Below, piece after piece: positions 8,910 through 26,370 of a stretch of 64,000 bases of DNA. Position 1 is the stretch's first letter. The number at the start of each line of letters is the position of its first letter. The translations under genes and the position numbers were made by a program. Below the pieces are notes generated by a model. That model saw nothing but the letters and a program-made list of their open reading frames with translations. It was not told the origin of the DNA and made no database searches. The stretch is from positions 186,001-250,000 of the forward strand of contig NZ_VAWA01000002.1 of NCBI RefSeq assembly GCF_005771565.1, given 5' to 3'. Source of the stretch: Nesterenkonia sphaerica. Its GTDB lineage: Bacteria; Actinomycetota; Actinomycetes; Actinomycetales; Micrococcaceae.

Positions 8910-10144
8910 GGCACTTCATGAGGCGAACCGTAGGCGCTTTAGGGTTTATGGGAGTCCTCGTGACCAGTTCCTGCGCGGTGGCCCCCGAGGCGCCTGAGCC
9001 GCAGAGCGCACCGATGACCGTTGCGGTGCCGGAGGCAGAATATGACACCGGCAGCCCCACCGGAGATGCGCCTGCGGATCAAGAACCTGGGGAGACCTCC
9101 TTGACGGAAGCCCACCCTGCGGAGCTGCCCCGTGCCAGCAGCACCTCGCTTGAGCCCGTGGGCACGATCAGTGAACCCGCCATGAGCCCGAAATCAGTGG
9201 TGGCCAACGATCACGGTCTGGCCATCGCCAATAACATGATGTATCACAACTCCGTGACGGTGTATGACACGCGGACCGGTGACCTGATCCAGGAACTGCC
9301 CGGCAGCGTCAGTCCGAGCAGCTTCGGCCTGGAAGGCTACCCCGACACTGTGCAGGGTGCGCCCGTGGAAGCCACGTGGACAGCCGACGGAGAGTACGCC
9401 TACGTCTCGCAGTATCGTCTGGCCGGGTTGGGAGCCGCGGCCTACGACGACTGCCGCAATGGCTCGGCCGTGGCTCCCTCGGCAGTCTTCCGGTACAGCG
9501 TCCAGGAGGAAGGATGGGACCAGTTCATCGAGGTGGGCCGGGTACCCAAGGCCCAGGCGCTGACGCCGGATGAGTCGCGGCTGCTGGTGACGAACTGGTG
9601 CGACTTCGACCTCTCGGTGATCGAGACGGCCACTGGGGTGGAGGAACGGCGCGTGCCGCTGAGCTCCCAGCCCCGCGGGATCGCGGTGATGCCGGACAAT
9701 CGCACCGCGTACGTGGCGGCCATGTATGCCAACGAGTTGTGGAAGGTGGACCTAGACACCGGCAGCGCTGAGGTCATTCACCGCGGCGCCGAGCTACCGC
9801 GTCATCTGGTCCTGTCACCTGAATCTGATGTGCTCTATGTGACCTTCAGCCGTTCAGACCTGCTGCTGGCCTTCGACACCAGCACGGACGAAGTGATCCA
9901 CACTGCCGACACCGGGCGCGAAGCACGGACCATGGACATCTCCGCAGACGGCACCGCCCTGTACGTGGTGAATTACTTTGAGGACACCGTCTCCAAGTTC
10001 GACGCTGGCACTCTGGAGGAGATCGACCGGCGCAGCACCGGGCACCGGCCGATCGGCGTCACCTACGATGCATCGACCGGGAGTGTATGGGTGGCCAATT
10101 ACTCCGGCAGCATTACGGTCTTCGACGACACCGCGCTGCGATAG
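8906..10144 (+). CDS. Probable lipoprotein with YVTN-type beta-propeller
   Basis: A 412-residue predicted exported protein. From the ATG at 8918 there is a signal peptide MRRTVGALGFMGVLVTSSC; Cys19 would be the lipidated residue, although TSS is a weak lipobox. A Pro/Glu-rich linker of roughly 75 residues follows, then a seven-blade-like propeller with repeats such as LLVTNWCDFDLSVIETATG, AYVAAMYANELWKVDLDTG, LYVVNYFEDTVSKFDAGT and VWVANYSGSITVFDD. Such propellers are binding scaffolds or surface proteins; no catalytic residues are evident. Starts at 8906 (overlapping the previous stop) and 8918 are both possible. The 3' end overlaps the convergent ctaA gene by 46 bp. Confidence 0.78.
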   Translation: MRHFMRRTVGALGFMGVLVTSSCAVAPEAPEPQSAPMTVAVPEAEYDTGSPTGDAPADQEPGETSLTEAHPAELPRASSTSLEPVGTISEPAMSPKSVVANDHGLAIANNMMYHNSVTVYDTRTGDLIQELPGSVSPSSFGLEGYPDTVQGAPVEATWTADGEYAYVSQYRLAGLGAAAYDDCRNGSAVAPSAVFRYSVQEEGWDQFIEVGRVPKAQALTPDESRLLVTNWCDFDLSVIETATGVEERRVPLSSQPRGIAVMPDNRTAYVAAMYANELWKVDLDTGSAEVIHRGAELPRHLVLSPESDVLYVTFSRSDLLLAFDTSTDEVIHTADTGREARTMDISADGTALYVVNYFEDTVSKFDAGTLEEIDRRSTGHRPIGVTYDASTGSVWVANYSGSITVFDDTALR

Positions 10145-11106
10145 TCCGCAGTTCCGGACGGTCGCAGGCCACGGGTGAGGTAACGGGCGCGGTAACGATC
10201 GAACACCTGGGTTGCGGCGACCATCGTGAGGGCGGAGCCCAGCATATGCAGCCAGACTAAGCCGATGGGGAGGCCAGCAAAGTACTGCCAGTAACCCAAT
10301 GCGCCCTGGGTCACAATGATCGCTATGAGGAACCATGCCGCTCGGTGCTGGTGGGTGGAGGTCTTCAGACGGGTCTGGGCCACCACAATGACGACCGCAG
10401 CGGCGCAGAGCATGTAGACCGGGACCACATGCAGCTGGGTGACCAGATGCAGTTCGAAGTTGTGCCGCGGAGAGTTCGGGTCGCCGGCATGCGGTCCGGT
10501 CCCGGTGACGATTGTGCCCAGCACTAGGGACACCCACGCGGTGACCAGCACGACACCGGCCATGGAGCGAGTCAGGTTGCTGGTTTGCCCGTCGACAATG
10601 GGATGTCCCGGCTCACCGCGGTGGGCCAGTTCAGCGTTGATCCTGGTCAGTAGCTGAGTGGCGATCAGCACCAGGCCGGCAGATGCCAGGAAGTGCAGCG
10701 CCACCACCCAGGGGTTGAGGTTCGTCCAGACGGTGATTCCCCCGATGATGCCCTGCAGCGGAATGCCGAATCCGATGATGATCGTGCGTACCACCAGCGC
10801 CCGGTGGCTGGACCAGAGTCTGATAACGGCCAGAAACATGGCGACGCTGATCAGGATCAGCACATAGGTCAGGAGACGGTTCCCGAACTCGATGGCGCCG
10901 TGGATGCCCATTTCAGGAGTTGAGACCCAGGAGTCAGCAGTGCAGCGCGGCCACTCGGGGCATCCCAGCCCGGAATCGGTGAGCCGGACTGCCCCGCCGG
11001 TGAGGATGATGCCGATGTTGGAGATCAAAGTGGCCCAGGCAAGAGCCTTCGTCAGTCGGGAGATACGCCCGGGGAGGCGGCGGCGGATTACTTCCATGTG
11101 AACCAC
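10099..11106 (-). CDS. ctaA: Heme A synthase, COX15/CtaA family
   Basis: Converts heme O to heme A for cytochrome c oxidase. The 335-residue protein has about eight membrane helices in two pseudo-repeats. Diagnostic motifs are GGAVRLTDSGLGCPEWPRC near the N-terminus (conserved Cys pair on the loop), the heme-ligand His in IHGAIEFGNRLLTY, and WVVALHFLASAGL. It is the last gene of an operon with an ABC exporter, overlapping the permease gene by 19 bp. The operon is preceded by a BlaI-type palindrome. An alternative start lies three codons downstream. Confidence 0.92.
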   Translation of the reverse strand: MVHMEVIRRRLPGRISRLTKALAWATLISNIGIILTGGAVRLTDSGLGCPEWPRCTADSWVSTPEMGIHGAIEFGNRLLTYVLILISVAMFLAVIRLWSSHRALVVRTIIIGFGIPLQGIIGGITVWTNLNPWVVALHFLASAGLVLIATQLLTRINAELAHRGEPGHPIVDGQTSNLTRSMAGVVLVTAWVSLVLGTIVTGTGPHAGDPNSPRHNFELHLVTQLHVVPVYMLCAAAVVIVVAQTRLKTSTHQHRAAWFLIAIIVTQGALGYWQYFAGLPIGLVWLHMLGSALTMVAATQVFDRYRARYLTRGLRPSGTADYRSAVSSKTVMLPE

Positions 11107-11852
11107 TTCCGTGCTGCGGCTATTGCCACCAGTGCCCAGGTGGCGAGGATCAGGACAGGAACTGCGGCCAGGTGACCGTCCACAGTTGCGCCGCGGACGG
11201 CCTCACCCAGCGCCGCAGAGGGCAGCGCCAGCAGCAGCGCGCCCGCGCCGTGGTGGTCCAGCGGCAGCACAGCGCCCCCGGCGGCTCCCATGAGCACCCA
11301 GGCCACATTCGCCAGAGCCAGGGTGGCCTCCGCGCGGACCGTCCCGGCCAGCAGCAGGCCCAACGCGGTGAAGGCCGCGGCGCCGATGACGAGTACGACC
11401 GCAAGCCACAGGATGCCCAGCGGTTCTGGGGACCAGCCCAAAACCGCTCCTGAGGCACCGAGCACCACCACCTGGACAGCGATGACGCACAGGACTGCGA
11501 GGGACTTCCCCAGGATCAGGCCGGTGGCCCCCAGGGGAGTGGTCGCCAGATAGGCCAGCACACCATACTGGCGTTCGAAGCCGGTGGCGATGGCCGCGCC
11601 GGTGAACGCCGAGGCCATCACCGCCAGACTCAGCACCCCCGGGGTGATGATGTCGATTCCGGGAACGACGTCGGTGACGGCGTGAGCCCGGTGCAGTCCC
11701 AAGAGCACCAGCAGCGGCAGGATCAGGGAGACGAGGAGCTGTTCGCCGTTGCGAAGGGTCAGGCGCGCTTCGTAGAGACCATGTGCAAGAATCCGGCGGT
11801 GCGCTGCAGCTGGCTGGGAACGGCGCTGTGCCTCGGTGTCAGGGGCACTCAC
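11088..11852 (-). CDS. ABC-2 type transporter permease
   Basis: A 254-residue membrane subunit with about six hydrophobic segments and the ABC-2 family layout: LILPLLVLLGLHRA in the first helix, GVLSLAVMASAFTGAAIATGFERQYGVLAYLATTPLG, and paired C-terminal helices ending in a short basic tail. It pairs with the ATPase encoded upstream (4-bp overlap) and precedes ctaA (19-bp overlap). The cargo is unknown. A link to heme or oxidase assembly is suggested only by the neighbour. Confidence 0.85.
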   Translation of the reverse strand: MSAPDTEAQRRSQPAAAHRRILAHGLYEARLTLRNGEQLLVSLILPLLVLLGLHRAHAVTDVVPGIDIITPGVLSLAVMASAFTGAAIATGFERQYGVLAYLATTPLGATGLILGKSLAVLCVIAVQVVVLGASGAVLGWSPEPLGILWLAVVLVIGAAAFTALGLLLAGTVRAEATLALANVAWVLMGAAGGAVLPLDHHGAGALLLALPSAALGEAVRGATVDGHLAAVPVLILATWALVAIAAARKWFTWK

Positions 11853-12817
11853 GGTGACGACACCTCCCAGAAGACGTCCTCCAGCGTGCGGGCTTCGAAG
11901 CTTATCTCAGCGGGAAACAGGCCGTTGCGCTCCCACCATCGAGCCAGTTCGGTCAGGTCCGCTGGCGAGGTGATTGACGGGACCCCCCAGCGGGCTCCTG
12001 CCCGGTTGGCGTGGCTGTCAAGCTCGAGGGCGAAGGGCGCGTCGTCGAGCTCTGCGCGGGTCACGGCCCGGGGCGCGGCAAAGCTCAACCGGCGCACCGC
12101 ACTGCTGTGCTGTTCCCCTGCGGAGCCGGTGAGTTCGGAGACGGTCCCGTGGCGCACCACGGCACCGTCTTTGAGGATGTACACGGCATCCGCCAAGTGC
12201 TGAGCCTCTTCCAGAAGATGCGTGGTGAGCACGATCCCGATTCCGCTGCTGCGCAGGTGCTCAATGAGCGCAAAGACCAGTTGTCGCGACTGTGGGTCCA
12301 GCCCGGCAGACGGTTCGTCGAGGAAAACCAGCTCGGGGTCGCCGATCAGGGCCGCGGCCAGCGCCACCCGCTGCTTCTGTCCGCCGGAGAGGCGCCGGAT
12401 GGTGGTGCCCAAGAACGCGGAGAGGTCCAGACGTTCGATCAGGTCTTCCAACGGCCAGGGATCGCGGTGGAGGGTAGCCACATGCTTCAGCAGGGTGCGC
12501 GGTTTGACCGACTGGGGGAGGCCACCGTCTTGGAGCATGACACCTACGCGGGCGCGCAGCTGGGCCCCGGCCCGGTAAGGGTCCTGGCCGAGCAGCTGCA
12601 CGGTTCCCGCCGAAGGTCGCAGTAGACCCTGGGCGCAGGAGAGGGTCGTGGTCTTGCCTGCACCGTTGGGTCCGATGATCACAGTCACTTCACCCTGCCG
12701 AGCAGTCAGATCCACGCCTGCGAGGATCTCTGTCACTCCCCGGGCGGAGGAGGCGGTGCCGACGGCATAGCGCACGTTGGCGAGATGCAAACAGGCGGGG
12801 GAGAAGGACACCGCCAT
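11849..12817 (-). CDS. ABC transporter ATP-binding protein
   Basis: A 322-residue ATPase. Walker A IIGPNGAGKTTT, signature LSGGQKQRVALAAAL, Walker B LVFLDEPSAGLD and switch His in VLTTHLLEEAQ are intact, followed by a C-terminal regulatory tail of about 100 residues as in drug- or nodulation-type exporters. It is the first gene of the exporter-ctaA operon. The -10-like TAGACT directly abuts the ATG at 12817 but lies exactly six bases from an in-frame GTG at 12811, so the true start may be that GTG on a leaderless message. A BlaI-type palindrome covers the area just upstream of the -10. Confidence 0.9.
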   Translation of the reverse strand: MAVSFSPACLHLANVRYAVGTASSARGVTEILAGVDLTARQGEVTVIIGPNGAGKTTTLSCAQGLLRPSAGTVQLLGQDPYRAGAQLRARVGVMLQDGGLPQSVKPRTLLKHVATLHRDPWPLEDLIERLDLSAFLGTTIRRLSGGQKQRVALAAALIGDPELVFLDEPSAGLDPQSRQLVFALIEHLRSSGIGIVLTTHLLEEAQHLADAVYILKDGAVVRHGTVSELTGSAGEQHSSAVRRLSFAAPRAVTRAELDDAPFALELDSHANRAGARWGVPSITSPADLTELARWWERNGLFPAEISFEARTLEDVFWEVSSP

Positions 12818-12828: not shown

Positions 12829-12845
12829 TTCTACGCGCCGTAGAA
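12829..12845. promoter_or_regulatory. BlaI-type operator, site A (exporter-ctaA operon)
   Basis: Perfect 7-3-7 palindrome TTCTACG-CGC-CGTAGAA. It lies between the -10 and the -35 position of the minus-strand operon, ideal for repression. The same motif occurs before blaI and before the DUF3099-surf1 operon. Confidence 0.7.
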
Positions 12846-12910
12846 TCCGGGGACCTGGACAGATACGTGGCAGCAGAAGCGGATCAGCACGCTCTTTAGG
12901 GTGGCCTTGC

Positions 12911-12939
12911 TAGACCGCTAGTTCTGAATAGGTCACAAT
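12911..12939 (+). promoter_or_regulatory. Possible leaderless promoter of suf operon
   Basis: TAGACC, 17 bases, then CACAAT, then six bases to the sufR ATG. Each hexamer matches the consensus at only four positions, so this is tentative. Confidence 0.3.
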
Positions 12940-12945
12940 TGAGTC

Positions 12946-13776
12946 ATGAAATTCGACGGCGACGCTGCTTCCGCTGCGCCCGATGCGGACGCGCGGGAGC
13001 TCGACGGCACCACGCGGCAGCGGGTGCTGCAGCTCGTCGTGGAAAAAGGGCCGATCAGCGCCGCCCAGCTGGGCCGCGAGCTGGATCTCACCGCGGCAGC
13101 AGTGCGGCGACACCTGGATGCGATGACGGAACAGGGCCTCGTGGAGATCAAGGCAGTCTCCAGCCGGCGCCAGGGCGCGGGGCGACCCTCTCGCCGTTAC
13201 GTGATCTCCTCCCGTGGCCAGCAAGAGCTCGGTGACGACTACCTCCGCCTAGTGCGCACCGCGCTGGCCGTCATCGATGACGATGACAAAGATGCCGCGG
13301 CGAAATCGCTGGCAGAGGCATACTTCGCTGATTTCGAGCAGCGCTACGCTCCGCAGCTTGAGCAGATCCAAGATCTGGATGAGCGGACTGAAAAACTGTC
13401 CACCCTGTTCAGCGCTGATGGCTTCGCCGGCTTCACACGTTTGGTGGGCCGGGACAACCCGCTGCTGGCCATGCAGTCGACCCAGTTGTGCCAAGGGCAC
13501 TGCCCGGTGCGGGAAATAGCTGCCGCCCATCCGGTGTTCTGTGAAGAGGAGACTGCGATGATCGCTCGGCTGCTGGATGTCGATGTGCGCAGGCTCTCCA
13601 CCCAGGCCGCCGGGGCCCACGTATGCACCACACATGTGCCGGTAGGCCGCGAACGGCTAGCCGCCGCCCGCGCAGACAGCGCCCGAGCCGGTGCACAAGA
13701 GACTTCACAGACCGGACGTACCGCCGGTCGTAAGAGAATCGTGATTTCCCCGCGTCAACAAGAGAGGTTGTCATGA
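12946..13776 (+). CDS. sufR: SufR-type Fe-S sensing repressor
   Basis: A 276-residue regulator heading the suf operon. An N-terminal winged helix is visible in [35 protein letters not shown] and [10 protein letters not shown]. The C-terminal half holds the cysteines expected to bind an iron-sulfur cluster: [17 protein letters not shown] and HVCTTH. Family members repress suf when clusters are plentiful and release DNA when the cluster is lost. The stop overlaps the sufB ATG by 4 bp. A basic tail of about 45 residues after the Cys region is poorly conserved. The start was chosen at the ATG following a possible leaderless promoter. Confidence 0.9.
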
Positions 13777-15251
13777 CCGAGCAGATTGCACGAGCAGAGG
13801 AAGTTCTGCGTCACACCGAGGATCCCAGCGTCATTCAGAAGGTGCTGGATGACAACCCTGAGCTGAAGGGTCTGGGCACCTACGAGTATGGTTGGGCCGA
13901 TTCGGACACCGCCGGCGCCGCAGCGCGGCGCGGAATCGACACCAGTGTCGTCGAAGACATCTCAAGCAAGAAGTCCGAGCCGGAGTGGATGCTGAAGCTG
14001 CGGAAGAAGGGTCTGCGGTACTTCGAGCGCAAGCCCCAGCCCACCTGGGGTGCCGACCTGTCAGACATTGACTTTGACAACATCAAGTACTTCGTTCGTT
14101 CCACCGAGAAGCAGGCCCAGACCTGGGAAGATCTGCCGGAGGACATCCGGAACACCTACGAGAAGCTCGGTATCCCCGAAGCTGAGCGCGAGCGGCTGGT
14201 CTCCGGCGTGGCGGCTCAATACGAGTCAGAAGTGGTCTACCACCAGATTCGCGAGGATCTTGAGGAGCAGGGTGTCATCTTTATGGACACCGACACCGCC
14301 CTGAAGGAGCACCCCGAATTCTTCGAGGAGTACTTCGGCTCGGTGATTCCTGTCGGGGACAATAAGTTCGCCGCACTGAACACCGCGGTATGGTCCGGAG
14401 GCAGCTTCGTCTACGTGCCCAAGGGTGTTCATGTGGAGATCCCACTGCAGGCCTACTTCCGGATCAACACCGAGAACATGGGTCAGTTTGAGCGGACCCT
14501 GATCATCGCCGATGAGGACTCCTACGTCCACTACATCGAAGGCTGCACGGCCCCGATCTACAACACTGATTCACTGCACTCCGCTGTGGTGGAAATCATT
14601 GTAAAGAAGAACGCCCGCGTGCGTTACACGACCATCCAGAACTGGTCCACCAACGTCTACAACCTCGTCACCAAGCGCGCGGTGGTGGACGCCGGCGGGA
14701 CGATGGAGTGGATCGACGGCAACATCGGGTCCAAAGTCACTATGAAGTACCCGGCGGTGTACCTCACTGGCGAACATGCCAAGGGGGAGACCCTTTCGGT
14801 CGCGTTTGCCGGTGCCGGCCAGCATCAGGACACCGGCTCCAAGATGGTCCATATGGCCCCGAACACCTCCAGCTCCATCGTGTCCAAGTCAGTGGCACGA
14901 TCTGGCGGCCGCGCCTCCTACCGTGGGCTGGTCCAGATCAACCCCGAGGCCAAGGGGTCGGCGAATTCGGTGGTCTGTGACGCCCTCCTGGTGGACACCA
15001 TCTCCAAGACGGACACCTACCCCTATATCGATATTCGTGAGGATGACGTCACCCTCGGCCATGAGGCGACCGTCTCCAAGGTCTCCGAGGACCAGCTGTT
15101 CTACCTCATGTCCCGCGGGCTGGCCGAAGACGAAGCCATGGCCATGATCGTGCGCGGCTTCATCGAACCGATCGCCCGGGAGCTGCCCATGGAGTACGCG
15201 CTGGAGCTCAACCGTCTTATCGAGCTGCAGATGGAAGGCTCCGTCGGCTAG
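13773..15251 (+). CDS. sufB: Fe-S cluster assembly scaffold SufB
   Basis: A 492-residue scaffold subunit of the SufBCD complex, on which clusters are built. The characteristic beta-helix core is present, with [25 protein letters not shown], the EGCTAPIY segment (conserved Cys), [13 protein letters not shown], and the C-terminal [25 protein letters not shown] that is shared with SufD and contacts SufC. Length is normal for actinobacteria. Translationally coupled to sufR. Confidence 0.97.
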
Positions 15252-15325
15252 TTCGCGCGCTGCGCTTACTCGATGTCGCCGTATACAGTCCTGCCTGAAG
15301 AGAAAACAAAGGGATCAGAGAACAC

Positions 15326-16621
15326 ATGACAGAAACCCCTGAGAAGGTCGCCGGAGTGGAGGTCGGCCAACGCCGCATCTCCATTCCCGGGTTCACCGAA
15401 GAAGGCGAAAACCTCGCCGCTGAGACAAATTCCGCTGCCGACCACAGTCACGGTGGGCTGGGCAAGCCCAAGGAGGTCACTGCCGGAGCGGGCTCGCGCG
15501 CTAACCGGCACACCGGGTTCGACTTGGCCCACTTCCCGGAGCCCACCGGACGCGAAGAGGAGTGGCGCTTCACACCCTTGAAGAAGCTCGCCGGTGTACT
15601 CAGCGATACTCCCACTCAGGGCGCCGGGACAGACCAGGAAGCCGTGAACTACCAGGTCAGCGGCACAGTCGAGGGCGTGGAGGTCTCCTCCCTCGGCCAT
15701 GGTGATGCTCCGCGCGGTGACGTGCTGCAACCGGCAGACCGTGCCGCGGTGGTCGGGTACAGGAACGCAGAACGCGCCCTGCACCTGAAGGTCACGCAGA
15801 ATACAGAAGTGGCTGAACCCATTCGTGTTGACATCACCGGACGAGCAGCCGGTGCCCGCGCCAACGGGCACATCGTGATCGAGGCGGAGCCCCACTCCCG
15901 CGCCGTCGTGGTCCTCGAACACCGCGGCAGCGCCGACTTCAACGGCAATGTGGAGGTCAAGGTCGGCGACGGTGCGACTGTGAGCCTGATCTCCCTCCAG
16001 CGGTGGGAGGATGACGCCGTCCACGTCGGCCAGCACGACGCTGAGGTCGGCAAGGACGCCACGTACAAGCACGTCGCTGTCACCCTGGGTGGCAGCACCG
16101 TCCGGCTCAACACCAACTTCCGCTACGCCGCTGAGGGCGCTACTGCGCAGATGTACGGTCTCTACTTCGCAGATGCCGGTCAGCACATCGAACACCGCAC
16201 TTTTGTGGATCACAACTCTCCGCGCAACAGCTCTGATGTGCTGTACAAGGGCGCACTGCAGGGCGCGACCGCCCGCAGTGTGTGGGTCGGCGATGTGCTC
16301 ATCCGCAAGGAAGCCGAAGGCACCGACTCCTACGAGAAGAACCAGAACCTGGTGCTGACCGACGGGGCTCGCGCTGACTCAGTCCCCAACCTGGAGATCG
16401 AAACCGGCCTTATCGAAGGCGCCGGACACGCCTCATCCACCGGTCGGTTCGACGACAACCACCTCTTCTACCTCATGTCTCGTGGAATTCCCGAGGACAT
16501 CGCCCGTCAGCTAGTGGTGCGCGGGTTCCTGAACGAGATCGTGCAGAAGATTGAGGTGCCTTCCATCAGGGAGTCCCTGGCCGATGACCTGGAACGTGAA
16601 CTGCGCATCTCAGGTCACTGA
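15326..16621 (+). CDS. sufD: Fe-S cluster assembly protein SufD
   Basis: A 431-residue paralogue of SufB and partner in the SufBC2D scaffold. It shows the acidic N-terminal domain with GREEEWRFTPLKKL, the beta-helix core with VWVGDVLIRKEAEGTDSYEKN, and the SufC-binding C-terminus with [28 protein letters not shown]. It lies 74 bp after sufB and 52 bp before sufC on the same strand, consistent with one operon. Confidence 0.96.
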   Translation: MTETPEKVAGVEVGQRRISIPGFTEEGENLAAETNSAADHSHGGLGKPKEVTAGAGSRANRHTGFDLAHFPEPTGREEEWRFTPLKKLAGVLSDTPTQGAGTDQEAVNYQVSGTVEGVEVSSLGHGDAPRGDVLQPADRAAVVGYRNAERALHLKVTQNTEVAEPIRVDITGRAAGARANGHIVIEAEPHSRAVVVLEHRGSADFNGNVEVKVGDGATVSLISLQRWEDDAVHVGQHDAEVGKDATYKHVAVTLGGSTVRLNTNFRYAAEGATAQMYGLYFADAGQHIEHRTFVDHNSPRNSSDVLYKGALQGATARSVWVGDVLIRKEAEGTDSYEKNQNLVLTDGARADSVPNLEIETGLIEGAGHASSTGRFDDNHLFYLMSRGIPEDIARQLVVRGFLNEIVQKIEVPSIRESLADDLERELRISGH

Positions 16622-16673
16622 GCCCGCCCTGCCCCTTTAACGAAGAACTTTCAAGCAAAGGACCCGAACACCA

Positions 16674-17441
16674 ATGTCTACTCTCGAGATCAAGGACCTG
16701 CACGTCTCCATTGAGACCGACCAGGGAACCAAGGACATCCTCAAGGGAGTCTCACTGACAATCAATTCCGGCGAGATTCACGCCATCATGGGCCCCAACG
16801 GCTCTGGGAAGTCCACCCTTGCCTCCACCATCGCGGGTCACCCGCGGTATGAGGTCACCAAGGGCGAAATTCTCTTGGACGGCGAAGACGTCCTGGAGAT
16901 GGGACCCGATGAGCGCGCCCAGGCGGGCCTCTTCCTGGCTATGCAGTACCCGGTTGAGGTGCCGGGCGTCACCATGACGAACTTTCTGCGCACCGCCAAG
17001 ACCGCGATCGACGGTGAAGCGCCCAAACTCCGGACCTGGACCAAAGAGGTCAAGCAGGCCATGGAGACGCTGCGCATCGATGCCGACTTCGCCAACCGCA
17101 ACGTCAACGAAGGGTTCTCCGGCGGCGAGAAGAAGCGCGTGGAGATCCTGCAGCTGGAGCTGTTCAAGCCCAAGTTCGCCGTTCTGGACGAGACCGACTC
17201 CGGCCTCGACATCGACGCCCTCCGGGTGGTTTCTGAAGGAGTGAACCGGGCGCACCAGGAAAACAATATGGGCACCCTGCTGATCACCCACTACACCCGC
17301 ATCCTCAACTACATCAAGCCCAGCTTCGTCCACGTGTTCGTGGACGGCAAGGTCGCCGAGCAGGGTGGTCCTGAACTGGCCGACGAGCTCGAAGCCAACG
17401 GGTACGACCGTTTCCTGGCTTCTGCTGCGGCCTCGGTCTGA
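16674..17441 (+). CDS. sufC: Fe-S cluster assembly ATPase SufC
   Basis: A 255-residue ABC-type ATPase that drives conformational change in the SufB-SufD scaffold. Walker A GPNGSGKSTL, signature FSGGEKKRVEILQLE, Walker B and D-loop FAVLDETDSGLDIDAL and the HYTRIL switch region match the family, including the SufC-specific ETDSGLDIDAL. No membrane partner is expected. Normal length. Confidence 0.97.
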   Translation: MSTLEIKDLHVSIETDQGTKDILKGVSLTINSGEIHAIMGPNGSGKSTLASTIAGHPRYEVTKGEILLDGEDVLEMGPDERAQAGLFLAMQYPVEVPGVTMTNFLRTAKTAIDGEAPKLRTWTKEVKQAMETLRIDADFANRNVNEGFSGGEKKRVEILQLELFKPKFAVLDETDSGLDIDALRVVSEGVNRAHQENNMGTLLITHYTRILNYIKPSFVHVFVDGKVAEQGGPELADELEANGYDRFLASAAASV

Positions 17442-19203
<1,762 letters not shown>

Positions 19204-19255
19204 TGGAGACCAAACCAACGTTAACGCCCGTAGACACCACGGGAAGGAAGAATCG

Positions 19256-19582
19256 ATGAGTGAAACTACCACCCAGGCCCCGCTGGAGGACGTCGAAGAG
19301 GCGCTCAAAGAGGTCATTGACCCCGAGCTGGGGATCAATATTGTCGACCTCGGGCTGCTCTACGGTCTGCGCTATGAGGACGACGGCGCACTGGTCATTG
19401 ATATGACGCTGACCACCGCTGCCTGCCCCCTCACGGATGTACTGGAGGAGCAGGTGGGCCAGCATGTCGGCACCATGGTCGACGAGTGGCGCCTGAATTG
19501 GGTATGGATGCCGCCGTGGGGCCCGGAGAAGATCACTGACGATGGCAAGGAGCAGATGAGAGCTCTCGGGTTCAACATCTGA
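19256..19582 (+). CDS. sufT: MIP18/DUF59-type metal-sulfur cluster assembly factor
   Basis: A 108-residue single-domain protein of the MIP18/DUF59 family, which assists Fe-S cluster maturation. The motif VIDPELGINIVDLGLLYGL and the conserved Cys in TTAACPLTDVLEEQV are present. It is the last gene of the suf operon, 52 bp after sufU, with an AAGGAAG ribosome site before the ATG. Gene-name assignment rests on position and family. Confidence 0.9.
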   Translation: MSETTTQAPLEDVEEALKEVIDPELGINIVDLGLLYGLRYEDDGALVIDMTLTTAACPLTDVLEEQVGQHVGTMVDEWRLNWVWMPPWGPEKITDDGKEQMRALGFNI

Positions 19583-19604
19583 ACCACCGCACACTGCACA
19601 CGTT

Positions 19605-19633
19605 TCGGAGATGCCCCGGGCGGGCGTCTCCGA
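19605..19633 (+). terminator. Hairpin terminator after suf operon
   Basis: A 12-bp stem with one G:U pair (19605-19616 with 19622-19633) and a 5-base loop, 22 bp after the sufT stop. There is no long T tract, which is common in high-GC genomes. Confidence 0.6.
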
Positions 19634-19685
19634 CGTGCTGTGCCATCTGTCACCACCCATTTTCTGCACAGAGGACCCCTCACCG

Positions 19686-21284
19686 TTGATCAGCGTTTCC
19701 AATCTCGAGCTGCGTGCCGGCGCCCGTCTACTGATGGATGGGGTCAGCTTCCGTATCGACCCCGGGGACAAGATCGGCTTGGTGGGCCGCAACGGCGCCG
19801 GAAAAACCACCATGACCAAGGTCATGGCCGGTGCCGCCCAGCCTGCCGCCGGGCACATCGAGCGCCGTGGATCCATCGGCTACCTGCCGCAGGACCCTCG
19901 AGTGGAGAACATGGACCAGACGGCCCGGGACAGGATTTTGTCCGCTCGGGAACTCGACGTGGTCTCGGCCAAACTTCTCCAGGCCGAAGAGGATATGACC
20001 TCGGCCAATGAGGCCGTCCAGCAGAAGGCCATGCGCCGGTATGACAATCTCCAAGCGCGGTTTCAGGCAGCAGGAGGCTACACTGCTGAATCTGAGGCGG
20101 CGATCATCTGCAAGAATCTGGACCTTCCCGACCGGATTCTGCTGCAGCCGCTGCACACCCTCTCCGGTGGGCAGCGTCGTCGGGTGGAACTGGCCAGGAT
20201 CCTTTTCTCCGATGCTGACACCCTGCTGTTGGATGAGCCGACCAACCACTTGGACGCTGACTCCATCGTCTGGCTCCGGGACTATCTGCAGCGTTTCCAC
20301 GGCGGTGTACTGATCATCTCCCACGATGTGGAGCTGATCGAGTCCACCGTGAACAAGGTGCTGTATCTGGATGCGATGCGCATGACCGTCGATGAGTACA
20401 ACATGGGCTGGCGGAAGTATCTGGTGCAGCGTGAGCAGGACGAGGCCCGCCGCAAGCGGGAATTTGCCAATGCAGAGAAGAAGGCCACAGCGCTGCGCGC
20501 CCAGGCGGAAAAGATGCGCGCAAAGGCCACGAAGGCGACTGCCGCTCAGTCGATGTTCAAACGGGCAGACCGCATGATGGCGGGCCTCGAGGGTGAGCGG
20601 CAGGCAGATCGGATCGCCAATATCCGTTTCCCGAAACCACAGCCGTGCGGCAAGACCCCTCTGATGGCCGAGGCGCTCTCCAAGTCCTACGGCTCGCTGG
20701 AAATCTTCACGGGACTCGACCTGGCAATCGATCGGGGTTCACGCGTGGTGGTGCTCGGTTACAACGGTGCCGGCAAGACCACCTTGCTACGGATGCTGGC
20801 AGGGGTCTCCGAGCCGGACTCAGGCCGTATCATCTCCGGGCACGGGCTGAAGCTGGGCTACTTCGCCCAGGAGCACGACACCTTGGACACCAGCCGCTCC
20901 GTGTTGGAGAACATGAAGACCGCTGCGCCATTCCTCACTGACACGGAGCAGCGCAAAATCCTGGGCTCCTTCCTCTTTTCCGGCGACGACGTCGCCAAAC
21001 CTGCCGGAGTACTCTCTGGAGGTGAAAAGACGCGGTTGGCCCTGGCGACACTCGTCGCCTCCAGCGCGAATGTCCTGGTGCTGGACGAACCGACCAACAA
21101 CCTCGACCCCGCCTCGCGTGACGAGATTCTTGCCGCCCTGCGCACCTATGAGGGTGCTGTGGTGCTGGTCTCGCACGATCCCGGGGCGGTCGAGGCCCTG
21201 GACCCGGAGCGAGTGGTGCTGCTCCCGGACGGGGTCGAGGACCTCTACACCAAAGAGTATGAGGACCTGGTCACCTTGGCGTGA
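19686..21284 (+). CDS. ABC-F family ATPase
   Basis: A soluble tandem ABC ATPase of about 532 residues without membrane segments. Both nucleotide domains are intact: Walker A GRNGAGKTTM and GYNGAGKTTL, signatures LSGGQRRRVELAR and LSGGEKTRLALA. They are joined by a charged, Lys/Arg-rich linker (REQDEARRKREFANAEKKATALRAQ). ABC-F proteins act on the ribosome during translation or antibiotic protection; nothing here assigns a specific drug. I chose TTG at 19686, where homology begins (LISVSNLELRAG); an upstream ATG at 19611 would place the start inside the suf terminator. Confidence 0.9.
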   Translation: MISVSNLELRAGARLLMDGVSFRIDPGDKIGLVGRNGAGKTTMTKVMAGAAQPAAGHIERRGSIGYLPQDPRVENMDQTARDRILSARELDVVSAKLLQAEEDMTSANEAVQQKAMRRYDNLQARFQAAGGYTAESEAAIICKNLDLPDRILLQPLHTLSGGQRRRVELARILFSDADTLLLDEPTNHLDADSIVWLRDYLQRFHGGVLIISHDVELIESTVNKVLYLDAMRMTVDEYNMGWRKYLVQREQDEARRKREFANAEKKATALRAQAEKMRAKATKATAAQSMFKRADRMMAGLEGERQADRIANIRFPKPQPCGKTPLMAEALSKSYGSLEIFTGLDLAIDRGSRVVVLGYNGAGKTTLLRMLAGVSEPDSGRIISGHGLKLGYFAQEHDTLDTSRSVLENMKTAAPFLTDTEQRKILGSFLFSGDDVAKPAGVLSGGEKTRLALATLVASSANVLVLDEPTNNLDPASRDEILAALRTYEGAVVLVSHDPGAVEALDPERVVLLPDGVEDLYTKEYEDLVTLA

Positions 21285-22185
21285 GCCGACTATCGACCCA
21301 GGCGTCTTCGGCATCCTCATCTGAGTAGCGGCCAGTCTGCCGACGGCGCAGCTCCTTGGCACGCCGGGCACGCTCCAGCCTCTCCAACCGCGCATCCGGC
21401 GAGGCACCATAATCGTCCTCGTCTGCGGACTCCTGGTGCTCGTCGAGGTCCAGGTTGCGCCGATGAACGCGGGCGGCGTAGCCCCACCCGACGAAGCTGA
21501 GCAAGCCGAAGGCCACCCACTGCATGGAGTAGCTCAGGTGCGGACCTTCGTCCAGGCTGGGGCGGGCCAACTGGTGGGGGGCTTCAGCCGGTTCCGGGGT
21601 TTCCGCAGCCATGAGGGCGTAGGCGCCCTGAACCAGCGGATAACTAACCTGTTCCTGATACTCGGTGAGGTCGATCGATGCCAGTTGGCCGGCGGGGGCT
21701 CCACGGTCGATGTCCGGTTCACCAGGCTTCAGCCGCGCCGTGACCTCCACGTCCCCGCCGGGCGGGTCCGGGTTGGATGCTGGGACGGACCCATCGGCGC
21801 TTGAGGTGGGCAGCCAACCGCGGGAGATGATGACGACGTCGCCCGTTGTCGAGTCCCGGAAAGGGACAAGCTGCTCGTACCCCACCTGGCCGCCGTGGCC
21901 GCGGTTGCGGGCCAAGAGTGAGTCCTCCTCCAGGTACTGCCCGCGCAGCTGCACCACTGTCCACTCATCACCGGCGTCACCGGCGGCGAATAGGTCGCGG
22001 GCCTGAGCGTAGGGGACTGGGTCCTCGTCATAATTGGCGACCACCCGGTTGATCTCCTCCAGCGCTGCATCACGGCGGTCCAGCTGCCACTGGCCCAGCA
22101 TGTAGCAGGCGACGCAGAACAGGACGCACACGGCGAGCCAGCCCATCCACACCGGAGACAGCAGGAACGCGTACCGGGCCCTCAC
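21271..22185 (-). CDS. SURF1 family cytochrome oxidase biogenesis protein
   Basis: A 304-residue protein with the SURF1 layout: an N-terminal membrane helix ending in GQWQLDRRDAALE, a periplasmic-side domain with VQLRGQYLEEDSLLARNR and VIISRGWLPT, and a C-terminal helix HLSYSMQWVAFGLLSFVGWGYAA. SURF1 helps insert heme A into cytochrome c oxidase subunit I. It is the last gene of a three-gene coupled operon (4-bp overlap with the gene before) under a BlaI-type palindrome. The tail of about 75 charged residues is variable. The 3' end overlaps the convergent ABC-F gene by 14 bp. Confidence 0.92.
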   Translation of the reverse strand: MRARYAFLLSPVWMGWLAVCVLFCVACYMLGQWQLDRRDAALEEINRVVANYDEDPVPYAQARDLFAAGDAGDEWTVVQLRGQYLEEDSLLARNRGHGGQVGYEQLVPFRDSTTGDVVIISRGWLPTSSADGSVPASNPDPPGGDVEVTARLKPGEPDIDRGAPAGQLASIDLTEYQEQVSYPLVQGAYALMAAETPEPAEAPHQLARPSLDEGPHLSYSMQWVAFGLLSFVGWGYAARVHRRNLDLDEHQESADEDDYGASPDARLERLERARRAKELRRRQTGRYSDEDAEDAWVDSRLTPR

Positions 22186-22439
22186 AGGTTGGCCTCGGCC
22201 CCACCAGGGGCGTGTTTGAGGGGGTCGGTGCTACGCCAGAACAGCCGGGCTTGCAGGAATGACTCCAGCCAGGGGCGGTGCTCGTGGCAGGCGAGCCAGA
22301 TCTTGCGCCGCTCCGGGCTGTGGATCTTGGGGTTGTTCCACTTCACCTGCCAGTCGGCCGGTGCCACACACCCTTTGCGGGAGCACTGCGGCACCTCGGG
22401 GCCCTGCTGATCGGAGCTCAATGCACCTAAGAGGTCCAT
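22182..22439 (-). CDS. Small conserved protein with Cys/His motif, operon with surf1
   Basis: An 85-residue soluble protein starting MDLLGALSSDQQGPEV. It carries CSRKGC near residue 19-24 and LACHEH near residue 52-57, spaced like a zinc-binding CxxxxC...CxxH site. I recall related Micrococcaceae proteins, also next to surf1, sometimes labelled acetone carboxylase; nothing in the sequence supports that name. It is coupled on both sides: the ATG shares a base with the DUF3099 stop, and its stop overlaps the surf1 start. A role in oxidase assembly is an inference from position. Confidence 0.7.
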   Translation of the reverse strand: MDLLGALSSDQQGPEVPQCSRKGCVAPADWQVKWNNPKIHSPERRKIWLACHEHRPWLESFLQARLFWRSTDPLKHAPGGAEANL

Positions 22440-22849
22440 CAGCGCTGCTCCTCCTGGTCGCTGTCGATTGTGTCGAGCTGTCCGGGGATCACGTCCGGGT
22501 GGTCGCTGCGCGGCTGTGGGGGCTCTGTCTCGCCTTCTTCCCACCACATCAGGGGATCCTCCCGGCCAGCGGTCAGCCTAGGGCGCTGATCCAATCCAGC
22601 AGCTTCCCGCTGCGCCATGTAGCGGTCGCCCCCAGCATTGGCGTTGACCACCGCCACATAGGGCAGCACGGCGGCGGCGACCACGAAGGCAACCGCCCAC
22701 CAGCTCTGCCATACGACGCCGACCACCGCCGCCAGGATAAAGCAGACGATGCGGATCGACATGGCTACCGAGTAGCGGACCATCCGGGAACGCTGCTCTA
22801 CACTGTGCTTCAGCGGCGCGTCCGTGATGGAGTGGACCGGTTTGGTCAT
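22439..22849 (-). CDS. DUF3099 membrane protein
   Basis: A 136-residue protein with two adjacent membrane helices (IVCFILAAVVGVVWQSWWAVAFVVAAAVLPYVAV) after a basic N-terminus, and an acidic, Pro-rich cytoplasmic tail. This matches the actinobacterial DUF3099 family of unknown function. It is the first gene of the surf1 operon. The promoter is unusually clear: CTGACA, 17 bases, TAGAAT, six bases, ATG, hence leaderless, and a BlaI-type palindrome covers the -10 region. Confidence 0.85.
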   Translation of the reverse strand: MTKPVHSITDAPLKHSVEQRSRMVRYSVAMSIRIVCFILAAVVGVVWQSWWAVAFVVAAAVLPYVAVVNANAGGDRYMAQREAAGLDQRPRLTAGREDPLMWWEEGETEPPQPRSDHPDVIPGQLDTIDSDQEEQR

Positions 22850-22855
22850 CTTCTC

Positions 22856-22884
22856 ATTCTACGCGCTGTAGAACGGGCTGTCAG
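22856..22884 (-). promoter_or_regulatory. Promoter of DUF3099-surf1 operon
   Basis: Minus strand: CTGACA (22884-22879), 17-base spacer, TAGAAT (22861-22856), then six bases to the ATG. The operator at 22857-22873 overlaps the -10. Confidence 0.65.
22857..22873. promoter_or_regulatory. BlaI-type operator, site B (DUF3099-surf1 operon)
   Basis: TTCTACG-CGC-TGTAGAA, one mismatch between arms. It overlaps the -10 hexamer of the minus-strand promoter. Sites A and C share the TTCTAC...GTAGAA arms with the same 17-bp length. Confidence 0.68.
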
Positions 22885-22976
22885 AGTCTCCAGCTGCACG
22901 CGGCTCTCCGCGGCGTACCAGTGGGTAGGTTCCAGTCTCACGTAGGGTGGTGGGCGAGTAATTCTGCACTGGATGA

Positions 22977-23693
<717 letters not shown>

Positions 23694-23731
23694 GCACACC
23701 GATGTCATTCCGCAAGCAGAAAGAGGACGTT

Positions 23732-24493
23732 ATGGGAACCAGAGACCTTGCAGGCAAAGGTGCCATCATCACCGGTTCTTCCCGGGGGATCGGCGCAGCC
23801 ACCGCCCAACTCATCGGACAACGGGGAGCCGGTGTGGTGGTGAACTACCGGGCAAAGGCCCCGCGCGCCAACAAGGTGGTCAAAGGAATTCAGGAGGCCG
23901 GCGGCCAGGCCGTTGCCGTTCAGGCGGACCTCACAGAGCAGGAGGGCACTGATGCGCTGATCAACGCTGCCGTCGAGCACTTCGGCTCCCTGGACCTGCT
24001 GATTCTGAACGCCTCAGGCGGTATGGAAACTGACCGTGGCGAAAACTATGCGCTGAGTCTGAACCGTGACGCTCAGGTCAACATGGTCAAGGCGGCGATG
24101 CAGGTGATGCCACGCGGCGGGCAGATCATCTTCGTCACCAGCCACCAGGCGCATTTCATTCACGATGTCTCCACGATGGACGCCTATGAACCGGTGGCCC
24201 GTTCCAAGCGCGCCGGCGAGGACGCGTTGCGCGAGATGGTCCCTGAGTTGGACGAGCGCGGCATCATCCTGACGGTGGTCTCCGGAGACATGATTGAAGG
24301 AACGATTACCGCGACCCTGCTCAACCGAGCTGAGCCGGGTGCGATCGAGGCTCGCCGGGAGGCTGCCGGCAAGCTGTATTCGGTGGAAGAGTTCGCTGCT
24401 GAGATTGCGGCGATGGTCGGCAAGCCTGGCTTGGAGCAGGCTCATACGGAACTGGTGGGCGGCGCCGAAGACTTCTTGGCCCGCTCCCGCTGA
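23732..24493 (+). CDS. SDR family oxidoreductase with unusual active-site spacing
   Basis: A 253-residue SDR downstream of fabG. The nucleotide motif TGSSRGIGAATAQ and NASGG are normal. Where YxxxK is expected the sequence reads YEPVARSKRAGED, with the Lys seven positions after the Tyr, so the catalytic geometry is atypical. Position suggests an enoyl-ACP reductase-like or accessory role in fatty acid synthesis, but this is inference. The start ATG at 23732 has AAGAGGAC just upstream; an ATG ten codons earlier (23702) is less favoured. Confidence 0.82.
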   Translation: MGTRDLAGKGAIITGSSRGIGAATAQLIGQRGAGVVVNYRAKAPRANKVVKGIQEAGGQAVAVQADLTEQEGTDALINAAVEHFGSLDLLILNASGGMETDRGENYALSLNRDAQVNMVKAAMQVMPRGGQIIFVTSHQAHFIHDVSTMDAYEPVARSKRAGEDALREMVPELDERGIILTVVSGDMIEGTITATLLNRAEPGAIEARREAAGKLYSVEEFAAEIAAMVGKPGLEQAHTELVGGAEDFLARSR

Positions 24494-24689
24494 GCAGAGC
24501 TGGGGCGGGTCGGTCGGCTAGCTGTACCCATCGAGCACGTGGGTTGAGGCAGTGTGATCCGTGCATCTGAACACTGGCACGCCGACGACTGTCATTTCCG
24601 TGCGTTCTCCACCCCACCCTCGTGCCTAAGAGCGTCGGATGTGAGATCTGTCGCTGATGGCGCGGTTCGGGGAGCTGCTGCACGTCGAG

Positions 24690-24934
24690 ACCGGTCCCGT
24701 GTGGCCGAGGCCGAGGTCCACGACGATGAGACTGCCGCGACAGCCGCTGCGGTGCTGACCCGGGCTGCGGTCATATGCGACGAGCTCGGGATCAGGCACT
24801 GCCGGACTCGGCCACACACCCCGCAGACCCGCGGTGAGATGGAGCGATGTCATCGCACACTGACCAAGGGGAGGGCGATGCCCGCTGCGGCACCAGCCTG
24901 CCGCCACCATATCGACCAACGTGACAGGTCATGA
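24690..24934 (+). pseudogene. IS481-like transposase remnant with internal deletion
   Basis: A short frame carries two recognisable pieces of an IS481-type integrase core. The first is SRVAEAEVHDDETAATAA, like the SRLAYSE...DE..ETAAAF segment. The second is RTRPHTPQTRGEMERCHRTL, like the RTRPY.PQTNGK.ERF.RTL segment around the catalytic Glu. The region between, with the second catalytic Asp, is missing and the ends are gone. No inverted repeats or target duplication were seen. The rest of 24494-24937 holds nothing else recognisable. Confidence 0.65.
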
Positions 24935-24937
24935 CGG

Positions 24938-25915
24938 CTAGCTCAGCAGGAGCAGACCGGTGGGGACACCCAACAGCGCTGCTGAGGCGAGCAGTGTGCT
25001 GGAGGTCGCCAGCGGCCCCAGCGGTGCCGGAGGTGCCAGCAGCCGCTGCAGCCGGGCACCGGTGATCAGCGCCGCGGGGGTGCCAGGCCCATCGGAGCAG
25101 TCCCTGCTTTCCCCGATGGGTGCCTCCGGCTGTTGCGGCGCCTCCACGGAGCTCAGGGCCAATGACCGCAGGAGAGTCTCCGGGGAGCAATGACGCAGCG
25201 CACCGTCGTCGGCGAGCATCTCGGTCAACTCCAGCACCGCCTCCCGGCCGTACCGGTTCGTCGGCAGCCACGGCAGCGCCCGGTACCACGCTTCAAAGGC
25301 CATGGTCAGCAGATGGTGGCGCTGCCTGAGGTGTGTCTGTTCATGCGCGACCACCGCCTCCAGTTCCGGGGCGCTCAGCGTCTCCAGCAGACCTCGAGAC
25401 AGCACCGTGACCGAGCTGGCGTGGGTGCGGCCGGGCAGGCAGTAGGCCAGCGGCGTCTGGTGCTCAATGACCTGAGTGTCCGCCTCATCTCGGGTATTGG
25501 TCAGGGGAGTCGAGAGCAGGTCCACCAGTTGCCGATGCCTGCGACGGGCACCCAGTACACGGAAGTACGTGCGAGCCAGAGTCAGCAGGAGGTGCCCGGC
25601 CAGCAGCACACCCGCGCAGAGTGCGAAGATGTGCCAGGCACGCAGCTCTGGCGGGGCTGCTGCGGCCGTATTCTCTGCCAACGCGAGTGTAGCGGCGGCT
25701 CCGAGGCTCTCCGGGACGCTTGCACCCAAGGGCGCGAGACCATAGACGATTGGTGCGCCCACCATAGACAGGCCCCCGGCCAGGGCGATCGCTTGCCAGA
25801 GGACCATGGCTACCCATGGGGAACGGGCTCGGAATGAGGCCGTGTGGAGAAACTTCGGCACAGGCACTGCAAGGACAGCCGCTAGGGCGGCCAGGAACAA
25901 TGCTAGAGCTTCCAC
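24938..25915 (-). CDS. M56 family membrane metallopeptidase (BlaR-like, no sensor domain)
   Basis: A 325-residue protein with about four membrane helices and the zinc-protease motif VVAHEQTHLRQRHH (His191, Glu192, His195), with a downstream LTEMLADDGALR acidic segment. M56 proteins such as BlaR1 cleave a paired repressor of the BlaI family; blaI is encoded 36 bp upstream. Unlike BlaR1/MecR1 there is no C-terminal penicillin-binding domain: the protein ends shortly after the last helix. It resembles the short mycobacterial type, so the signal sensed is probably not a beta-lactam. Confidence 0.85.
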   Translation of the reverse strand: MEALALFLAALAAVLAVPVPKFLHTASFRARSPWVAMVLWQAIALAGGLSMVGAPIVYGLAPLGASVPESLGAAATLALAENTAAAAPPELRAWHIFALCAGVLLAGHLLLTLARTYFRVLGARRRHRQLVDLLSTPLTNTRDEADTQVIEHQTPLAYCLPGRTHASSVTVLSRGLLETLSAPELEAVVAHEQTHLRQRHHLLTMAFEAWYRALPWLPTNRYGREAVLELTEMLADDGALRHCSPETLLRSLALSSVEAPQQPEAPIGESRDCSDGPGTPAALITGARLQRLLAPPAPLGPLATSSTLLASAALLGVPTGLLLLS

Positions 25916-25951
25916 CGCACCAGTCTATTTGGCAGGCGGAATCGGCACACT

Positions 25952-26290
25952 TCAGCCGAGGATTCGGCGCAGTGCCGCAGCTTCGGAGTCGGAGACGCTG
26001 CCGATAAAACGGGCGAGGACCACTTCCCGGTCTGGAACCGTGCCAAGGACCTCATTGAGCATCTCCACGGTGTGCTCCTCCCGGGAGGCCACCGCAGCGT
26101 ACCGGTGGGGCCGGGAGGCGCGCTCACGGCGGACCATGCCTTTCTTCTCCAACCGGGCCAGTACAGTCAGCACGGTGGTGACGGCCAAGTCCTCATCCAA
26201 CAGCTCACAGACCTCATTGGCGCTCAGCGGCTGCGCCGAGTCCCAGAGGAGACTCATGACTGAACGCTCAAGCTCACCGAGTGAAGCCAT
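25952..26290 (-). CDS. blaI: BlaI/MecI/CopY family transcriptional repressor
   Basis: A 112-residue winged-helix repressor. The sequence MASLGELERSVMSLLWDSAQPLSANEVCELLDEDLAVTTVLTVLARLEKKGMVRRER is the full BlaI DNA-binding domain; the C-terminal helices mediate dimerisation and hold the region cleaved by M56 partners. I place the start at 26290 because an AAAGGAG site lies about 10 bases upstream and the family starts there; an ATG ten codons earlier (26320) is less likely. It forms an operon with the M56 gene. A TTCTAC...GTAGAA palindrome 64 bp upstream suggests autoregulation. Confidence 0.9.
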   Translation of the reverse strand: MASLGELERSVMSLLWDSAQPLSANEVCELLDEDLAVTTVLTVLARLEKKGMVRRERASRPHRYAAVASREEHTVEMLNEVLGTVPDREVVLARFIGSVSDSEAAALRRILG

Positions 26291-26353
26291 GCTGTTTGTG
26301 CTCCTTTTGGACCGAGTCATTATTGGACCAGGATACTCCCATCGACGTGAAGT

Positions 26354-26370
26354 TTCTACACGCCGTAGAA
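26354..26370. promoter_or_regulatory. BlaI-type operator, site C (blaI-M56 operon)
   Basis: TTCTACA-CGC-CGTAGAA, one mismatch between arms, between the end of parC and the start of blaI. Being in front of the blaI gene, it is the best anchor for assigning sites A and B to BlaI. Confidence 0.7.

Follow-up and report, generated by a model that had tools for sequence, protein, structure and literature searches.

In Staphylococcus aureus, BlaI/MecI and BlaR1/MecR1 pair a winged-helix repressor with a membrane gluzincin, and both the BlaR1 cleavage site in BlaI and the BlaR1 catalytic residues (H201, E202, H205, E242 and D246) have been described (PMC9834060). In Mycobacterium tuberculosis, the repressor BlaI (Rv1846c) adjoins a BlaR (Rv1845c) without penicillin sensor; this BlaI is reported to bind the cytochrome bd and ATP synthase promoters and also to control blaC (PMC5473688), to have atpH and sigC in its regulon (PMC8265638) and, in gel shifts, to bind the Rv1303 promoter of the atp operon (PMC12565901). 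For Clostridium BlaI, DNA affinity purification sequencing (DAP-seq) yielded a motif of inverted hexamers five nucleotides apart (PMC8457756). Here we analyze a BlaI system encoded in a 64,000-nucleotide stretch of the Nesterenkonia sphaerica genome (assembly GCF_005771565.1, contig NZ_VAWA01000002.1, positions 186,001 to 250,000; hereafter the window), in which the palindrome TTCTACN5GTAGAA precedes blaI and two operons that encode the cytochrome oxidase assembly proteins CtaA and SURF1 (Table 1). We consider it likely, on sequence grounds, that TWCTAC-N5-GTAGWA is the operator through which BlaI represses its own operon and operons of aerobic respiration, with an adjacent sensorless protease relaying a signal from the membrane.

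The initial annotation had described three exact palindromes in the window, each less than 75 bp upstream of a minus-strand start, and both statements proved correct. No fourth box appears in the window even with up to two mismatches; 0.36 boxes were expected, and three were reached in none of 100 shuffles. Across the 2.79-Mb genome the exact pattern occurs 13 times, as compared with about 0.03 occurrences expected from base composition and none of the reversed control pattern, and all 13 sites lie 3–71 bp before the start of an open reading frame (ORF), chosen by us on either strand. According to Pfam matches and position, one site precedes blaI, eight precede respiratory or heme genes (ABC-ctaA, DUF3099-surf1, a second surf1, ctaB, resA-ccdA-resB, a 188-aa ORF with a second resA-type gene, hemQ and sdhC) and four precede other genes (a 140-aa ORF, a 134-aa membrane protein, carD divergent from a lipoprotein gene, and lysS). 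The ctaB product has a UbiA match and is taken by us to be CtaB; the lipoprotein beside carD, presumably LpqE, is not counted as respiratory. The sdhC site is nearly equidistant from a divergent manC-like gene (71 vs. 73 bp). Among six sites with one mismatch, five stand before hemA|hemE, ctaC, ctaE, a 65-aa ORF (u65) with ctaG-copD, and atpB (137 bp upstream), and the sixth lies inside a coding region read by eye as sodA; with up to two mismatches the genome scan is uninformative (68 matches vs. 96 for the control). The motif is therefore not scattered at random, and the targets foreseen by the initial annotation were recovered in part: ctaC, ctaE and ctaB carry sites and qcr is reached by its position after ctaE, but cyd was not found, because the genome holds no cydA above the cut-off. 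The proposed heme A/SURF1 regulon is supported by sites at ctaA, ctaB and the two surf1 genes, but the set of putative targets is wider.

That the boxes are chance palindromes or members of a dispersed repeat family was rejected on the counts, the unshared flanks and the recurring targets, and we regard it as practically negligible. The lysS site and some targets in other genera do look unrelated, and the control pattern finds matches in other genomes; against this stand the excess of exact sites, flanks that are not common to the sites, variable central bases and targets that recur across genera.

The sites recur in sister species. Within Nesterenkonia and Garicola, all 20 named loci have the blaI box, ten in exact form and ten with one side reading TACTAC. 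When 21 blaI upstream regions are aligned on the box, a single one of the 12 arm positions varies (T or A), and variation is otherwise seen in the flanks and most of the spacer. A congener (G071) has 15 exact sites, all placed, and no control match. Ten of them match targets of the N. sphaerica genome (blaI, ABC-ctaA, ctaB, resA, hemQ, surf1b, sdhC|manC, carD|lipoprotein, and the 140-aa and 134-aa proteins, u140 and u134), and the other five are found at ctaC, u65-ctaG, CopC, a pyridoxamine-oxidase-like gene and a relative of the 188-aa ORF (u188) with a CtaG-like gene. The ABC-ctaA box occurs in five genomes from four genera (also G071, G005, G041 and G099), and the DUF3099-surf1 box is exact in nine of the 20 named relatives and has one mismatch in a tenth.

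In order to follow the sites more widely, 198 genomes of the order were scanned for exact matches, and strong BlaI was defined as a PF03965 match with E<=1e-10 (our threshold; hand tally). At least one site occurs in 37 genomes: 35 of the 87 with strong BlaI (161 sites) and two of the 111 without (2 sites). The reversed control shows no such difference (12/87 vs. 11/111; p 0.50). Target context, covering 87 of the 161 sites, includes hemQ (G005, G099, G041, G113), ctaE/qcrC (G041, G113), u140 (G005, G099), u134 (G025), resA (G005, 0.7 kb away; G025, twice) and ctaG (G025), as well as flavohaemoglobin in three genomes of two families (G005, G113 and G156; loci L092, L105 and L116), cytochrome bd (G093, G111) and a cydDC-like exporter (G111). 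In four genera, TWCTACN5GTAGWA gives six extra sites, three at ABC-ctaA, two at resA-ccdA-resB and one at a ccsB-like gene. Of 20 fetched BlaI loci, a set chosen in part for having sites, 17 show a box with no more than one mismatch in the 400 nt preceding blaI. The names CtaD, QcrC/A, SodA, truncated haemoglobin, CcsB, sigma factor, CydA (family f22) and Rv1303-type were assigned by eye, with no Pfam run behind them; Pfam matches back CydA of loci L074 and L076, and a tblastn match backs the f22 AtpB.

Family f22 was taken as Mycobacteriaceae, with 68–94% identity to M. tuberculosis BlaI. Of its 24 blaI loci, 20 carry TACKACN5GTMGTA, which has the same 6-5-6 geometry, and 15 fetched f22 sites (names mostly by eye) include two at blaI, two at cydA, three at the atp operon and one at a sigma-factor gene. 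Since N. sphaerica has a single PF03965 gene, the f22 geometry recurs at blaI and at published BlaI targets, and the Clostridium motif has the same arrangement of hexamers, the TTCTACN5GTAGAA box is very probably the BlaI operator. What ties the box to BlaI is position, co-occurrence and geometry, and the same genes are under other regulators elsewhere, such as HrrA in Corynebacterium glutamicum, as described in PMC7337898; an unlinked transcription factor could thus bind the palindrome and control respiration, the blaI operon being merely one of its targets. We consider this unlikely. The sites track BlaI in the survey, and three genomes of the same family without strong BlaI hold zero, zero and one site, although two of them encode CtaA; in these two, the 3.9-kb loci around ctaA contain no box under three mismatches. 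The f22 geometry before blaI and published targets also speaks against such a factor, as does the five-nucleotide spacing of the Clostridium motif (PMC8457756).

Regarding the proteins, the N. sphaerica BlaI matches PF03965 with 82.5 bits (cut-off 22.6), its nearest solved structure by sequence is 2g9w, and the nearest BlaI among the named genomes searched is that of N. natronophila (92% identical). Its Phe105 aligns with the residue after the S. aureus cut, a position occupied by Phe in 72 of 72 loci. CopY, a copper repressor of the same superfamily, has a C-terminal Cys cluster. A CopY reading was rejected, the TIGR02698 (CopY_TcrY) score being 35 bits against a cut-off of 121.95; because BlaI has only one Cys (C38) and no C-terminal cluster, direct copper sensing is unlikely.

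The initial operon assignments hold by Pfam for ABC-ABC2-CtaA, DUF3099-(121 aa)-SURF1 and BlaI, but the gene annotated as M56 matches only Peptidase_M48 at E<=0.001, and a PDB sequence search gives only a weak HtpX-like match (E 0.11). Its identity as a BlaR1-like protease rests on its position beside blaI and on the BlaR1-type catalytic spacing: H191, E192, H195, E232 and D236 are the same in all 16 sequences aligned, and H191/H195/E232/D236 correspond to BlaR1 H201/H205/E242/D246 with an offset of 10 (PMC9834060). The HExxH motif is found in 71 of 71 parsed BlaI-protease pairs, and the predicted model is helical (predicted local distance difference test 81), ending in a helix at 301–324. The N. 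alkaliphila locus (L122), which keeps the blaI box, was set aside from these pairs; the only protease match in the locus is on the opposite strand, 6.8 kb from blaI and towards fabG and DUF3099.

Despite the likeness to BlaR1 and MecR1, no penicillin-binding domain was found in the Nesterenkonia protease by Pfam, and the targets are respiratory. An ordinary beta-lactam response, with the protease as a sensor of cell-wall antibiotics and the respiratory genes as secondary targets, is suggested by the family name, by the control of blaC in M. tuberculosis (PMC5473688) and by Beta-lactamase2-family matches in three regions of the N. sphaerica genome. However, besides the missing sensor domain, no beta-lactamase-family gene follows any of the 13 exact sites, the best boxes of two fetched Beta-lactamase2 regions have three and two mismatches, and the third region is 18 kb from the nearest exact site, all of which makes this explanation improbable.

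A close parallel is respiratory control by BlaI in M. tuberculosis. The initial annotation had stated that this protein acts beyond beta-lactamase, in agreement with the binding reported for the ATP synthase and cytochrome bd promoters (PMC5473688, PMC12565901). The N. sphaerica system shares with it a repressor adjoining a BlaR without penicillin sensor and, in f22, the 6-5-6 box. It differs in its outer bases (TTC..GAA vs. TAC..GTA), in its targets (heme, heme A, cytochrome c maturation, aa3 oxidase and its assembly, and succinate dehydrogenase) and in that no cytochrome bd gene above the cut-off and no beta-lactamase target were found. HrrA of C. glutamicum has overlapping targets (ctaA, ctaB, ctaC, ctaD, ctaE-qcrCAB and sdhC; PMC7337898), but it is a two-component response regulator for heme, as opposed to the putatively protease-controlled BlaI repressor considered here.

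These findings allow us to propose a model in which a BlaI dimer bound at or beside promoters would repress its own operon together with genes for the synthesis of heme (hemA/hemE, hemQ) and of heme A (ctaA, ctaB), for the subunits of the oxidase and its assembly (ctaC, ctaE, ctaG-copD, two surf1), for the maturation of cytochrome c (resA-ccdA-resB), and for succinate dehydrogenase and ATP synthase. The signal at the membrane would most likely be impaired or inadequate respiration and not a beta-lactam; the BlaR1-like zinc protease encoded next to blaI would relay it, probably by cleaving BlaI near Phe105, and cleavage would raise the whole set together. Because the set is dominated by genes for heme, heme A, cytochrome c and oxidase assembly, and no cytochrome bd exceeds the cut-off, such a response would serve to make or mend the aa3 branch. 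A box at cytochrome bd, flavohaemoglobin or globin-like genes in some relatives fits a blocked-respiration signal (low oxygen, nitric oxide, or metal or heme shortage), the flavohaemoglobin boxes hinting at nitric oxide or blocked respiration. At the sequence level, the earlier proposal that BlaI and its protease control terminal oxidase assembly is supported by site distribution, conservation and co-occurrence with BlaI, to which target identities and catalytic residues add; BlaI binding, direction of control, proteolysis and signal are what we infer.

Several observations weigh against this model. Repression rather than activation is assumed from the BlaI family. The DUF3099-surf1 box is missing in 10 of the 20 named relatives. 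The ctaC one-mismatch site is 211 bp upstream of its start, and that of ctaE lies 105 bp from ctaE and 24 bp from a divergent trpD-like gene. Lysine tRNA synthetase in N. sphaerica does not fit a purely respiratory set, nor do Usp, amidohydrolase, PepSY and pyridoxamine-oxidase-like genes that carry sites in other genera, and some sites are without assignable target (e.g., L098, L099, the second site of L107, L108 and L115). In the survey, the Fisher value for co-occurrence with BlaI (p 8e-13) is overstated, because the genomes are related and not independent; two genomes without strong BlaI carry one site each; and 52 of the 87 with strong BlaI hold no exact site, therefore the operator or BlaI differs in many lineages. 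The degenerate pattern matches 15, 9, 7, 8 and 11 times in G000, G005, G041, G099 and G025, with 1, 4, 4, 3 and 3 matches of the reversed control. In f22, three genomes have 18 TACKACN5GTMGTA sites vs. 8 of the control, and seven of the 15 fetched sites are at unrelated or unidentifiable genes.

In M. tuberculosis, ATP synthase and cytochrome bd are already known to be under BlaI control. A BlaI regulon for heme, heme A and cytochrome c seems new: in the literature searched, most subscription journals being outside its scope, we found neither such a regulon, including oxidase assembly, nor this operator outside mycobacteria. We tentatively suggest, as a possibility short of an even chance, that in Actinobacteria BlaI and its sensorless protease may be at root a respiratory-integrity switch, in which the protease would monitor the electron-transport chain or its assembly, destroy the repressor and raise heme, heme A, cytochrome c, oxidase assembly, succinate dehydrogenase and ATP synthase together, beta-lactamase control being a later add-on. 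On that reading, the boxed u140, u134, u188, u65, DUF3099 and DUF3817 would be factors of the oxidase or a supercomplex that have so far escaped recognition. If the operator model proposed above holds, a regulator family named for penicillin resistance would govern much of aerobic respiration in Nesterenkonia and part of it in several related genera, and sensorless BlaR-type proteases would gain a physiological role along with a simple operator code for annotation. The model would also supply a list of uncharacterised candidates for oxidase assembly, and the contacts of mycobacterial BlaI with ATP synthase and cytochrome bd would find a frame.

Table 1. Coordinates of the BlaI boxes and of the genes they precede in the window.
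Feature	Position	Strand	Remarks
BlaI box TTCTACGCGCCGTAGAA	12829..12845	.	11 bp upstream of the start at 12817 (ABC-ctaA operon); 100 bp before divergent SufR-like gene
ABC (ATP-binding cassette) transporter ATPase, first gene of ctaA operon	11849..12817	-	PF00005
ABC-2 type membrane protein	11088..11852	-	PF01061/PF12698
CtaA, heme A synthase	10099..11106	-	PF02628, E 2.2e-20
BlaI box TTCTACGCGCTGTAGAA	22857..22873	.	7 bp upstream of the start at 22849 (DUF3099); overlaps promoter-like match; kept in 10/20 relatives
DUF3099 protein	22439..22849	-	PF11298
121-aa Cys-containing protein	22182..22547	-	no family
SURF1, oxidase assembly	21271..22185	-	PF02104, E 3e-33
BlaI box TTCTACACGCCGTAGAA	26354..26370	.	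33 bp upstream of the start at 26320 (blaI); putative autoregulatory operator (inverted repeat); conserved island in 21 sequences
Conserved GTATC, candidate -10 region (putative promoter role)	26332..26336	-	about 17 nt after blaI box; 19/21 sequences
BlaI/CopY-family repressor	25952..26320	-	PF03965; only such protein of the genome
BlaR1-like membrane zinc protease without penicillin-sensor domain	24938..25915	-	H191 E192 H195 E232 D236

The proposal that each box overlaps or adjoins a promoter was borne out in part. A sigma-70 scan gave a match overlapping one of the three boxes, that before DUF3099 (CTGACA-17-TAGAAT at 22856-22884, minus strand), and the conserved GTATC follows the blaI box, but the other sites are without match. 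An Rfam search of the 8–30 kb part of the window returned nothing at the gathering threshold. Between the two respiratory operons, positions 12946-19582 (plus strand) hold an ArsR/MarR-like (SufR-type) helix-turn-helix gene and ORFs reading as a suf Fe-S assembly cluster; the ctaA-side box falls in the promoter region of this divergent SufR-like gene and could act on it as well. A short ORF adjoining the protease gene (24554-24934, plus strand) resembles, by eye, a transposase remnant.

Outside the window, an exact box stands 16 bp before lysS (L022:1850-1866) and is absent from the 15 sites of the congener G071. The second resA-type operon, with its own box, lies on a 15.8-kb contig (L024, G000:C21) and is preceded by the 188-aa ORF; in G071, a relative of this ORF (L089) stands before a CtaG-like gene. 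In another genome, a box is placed between divergent blaI and cydA, and a second one before a fused cydDC-like exporter (L076:638-7209). For the carD-adjacent lipoprotein, u140 and u134, no convincing relative emerged from sequence searches of the PDB. The conserved u140 (L020:4169-4591, plus strand; also L078, L091 and L097) has two hydrophobic stretches and no known family; four genomes from three genera have a BlaI box before it, which makes it a candidate respiratory factor. The conserved hydrophobic u134 (L013:3774-4178, minus strand; also L079 and L109), likewise of no known family, carries the box in two Nesterenkonia genomes and in one genome of a second family.

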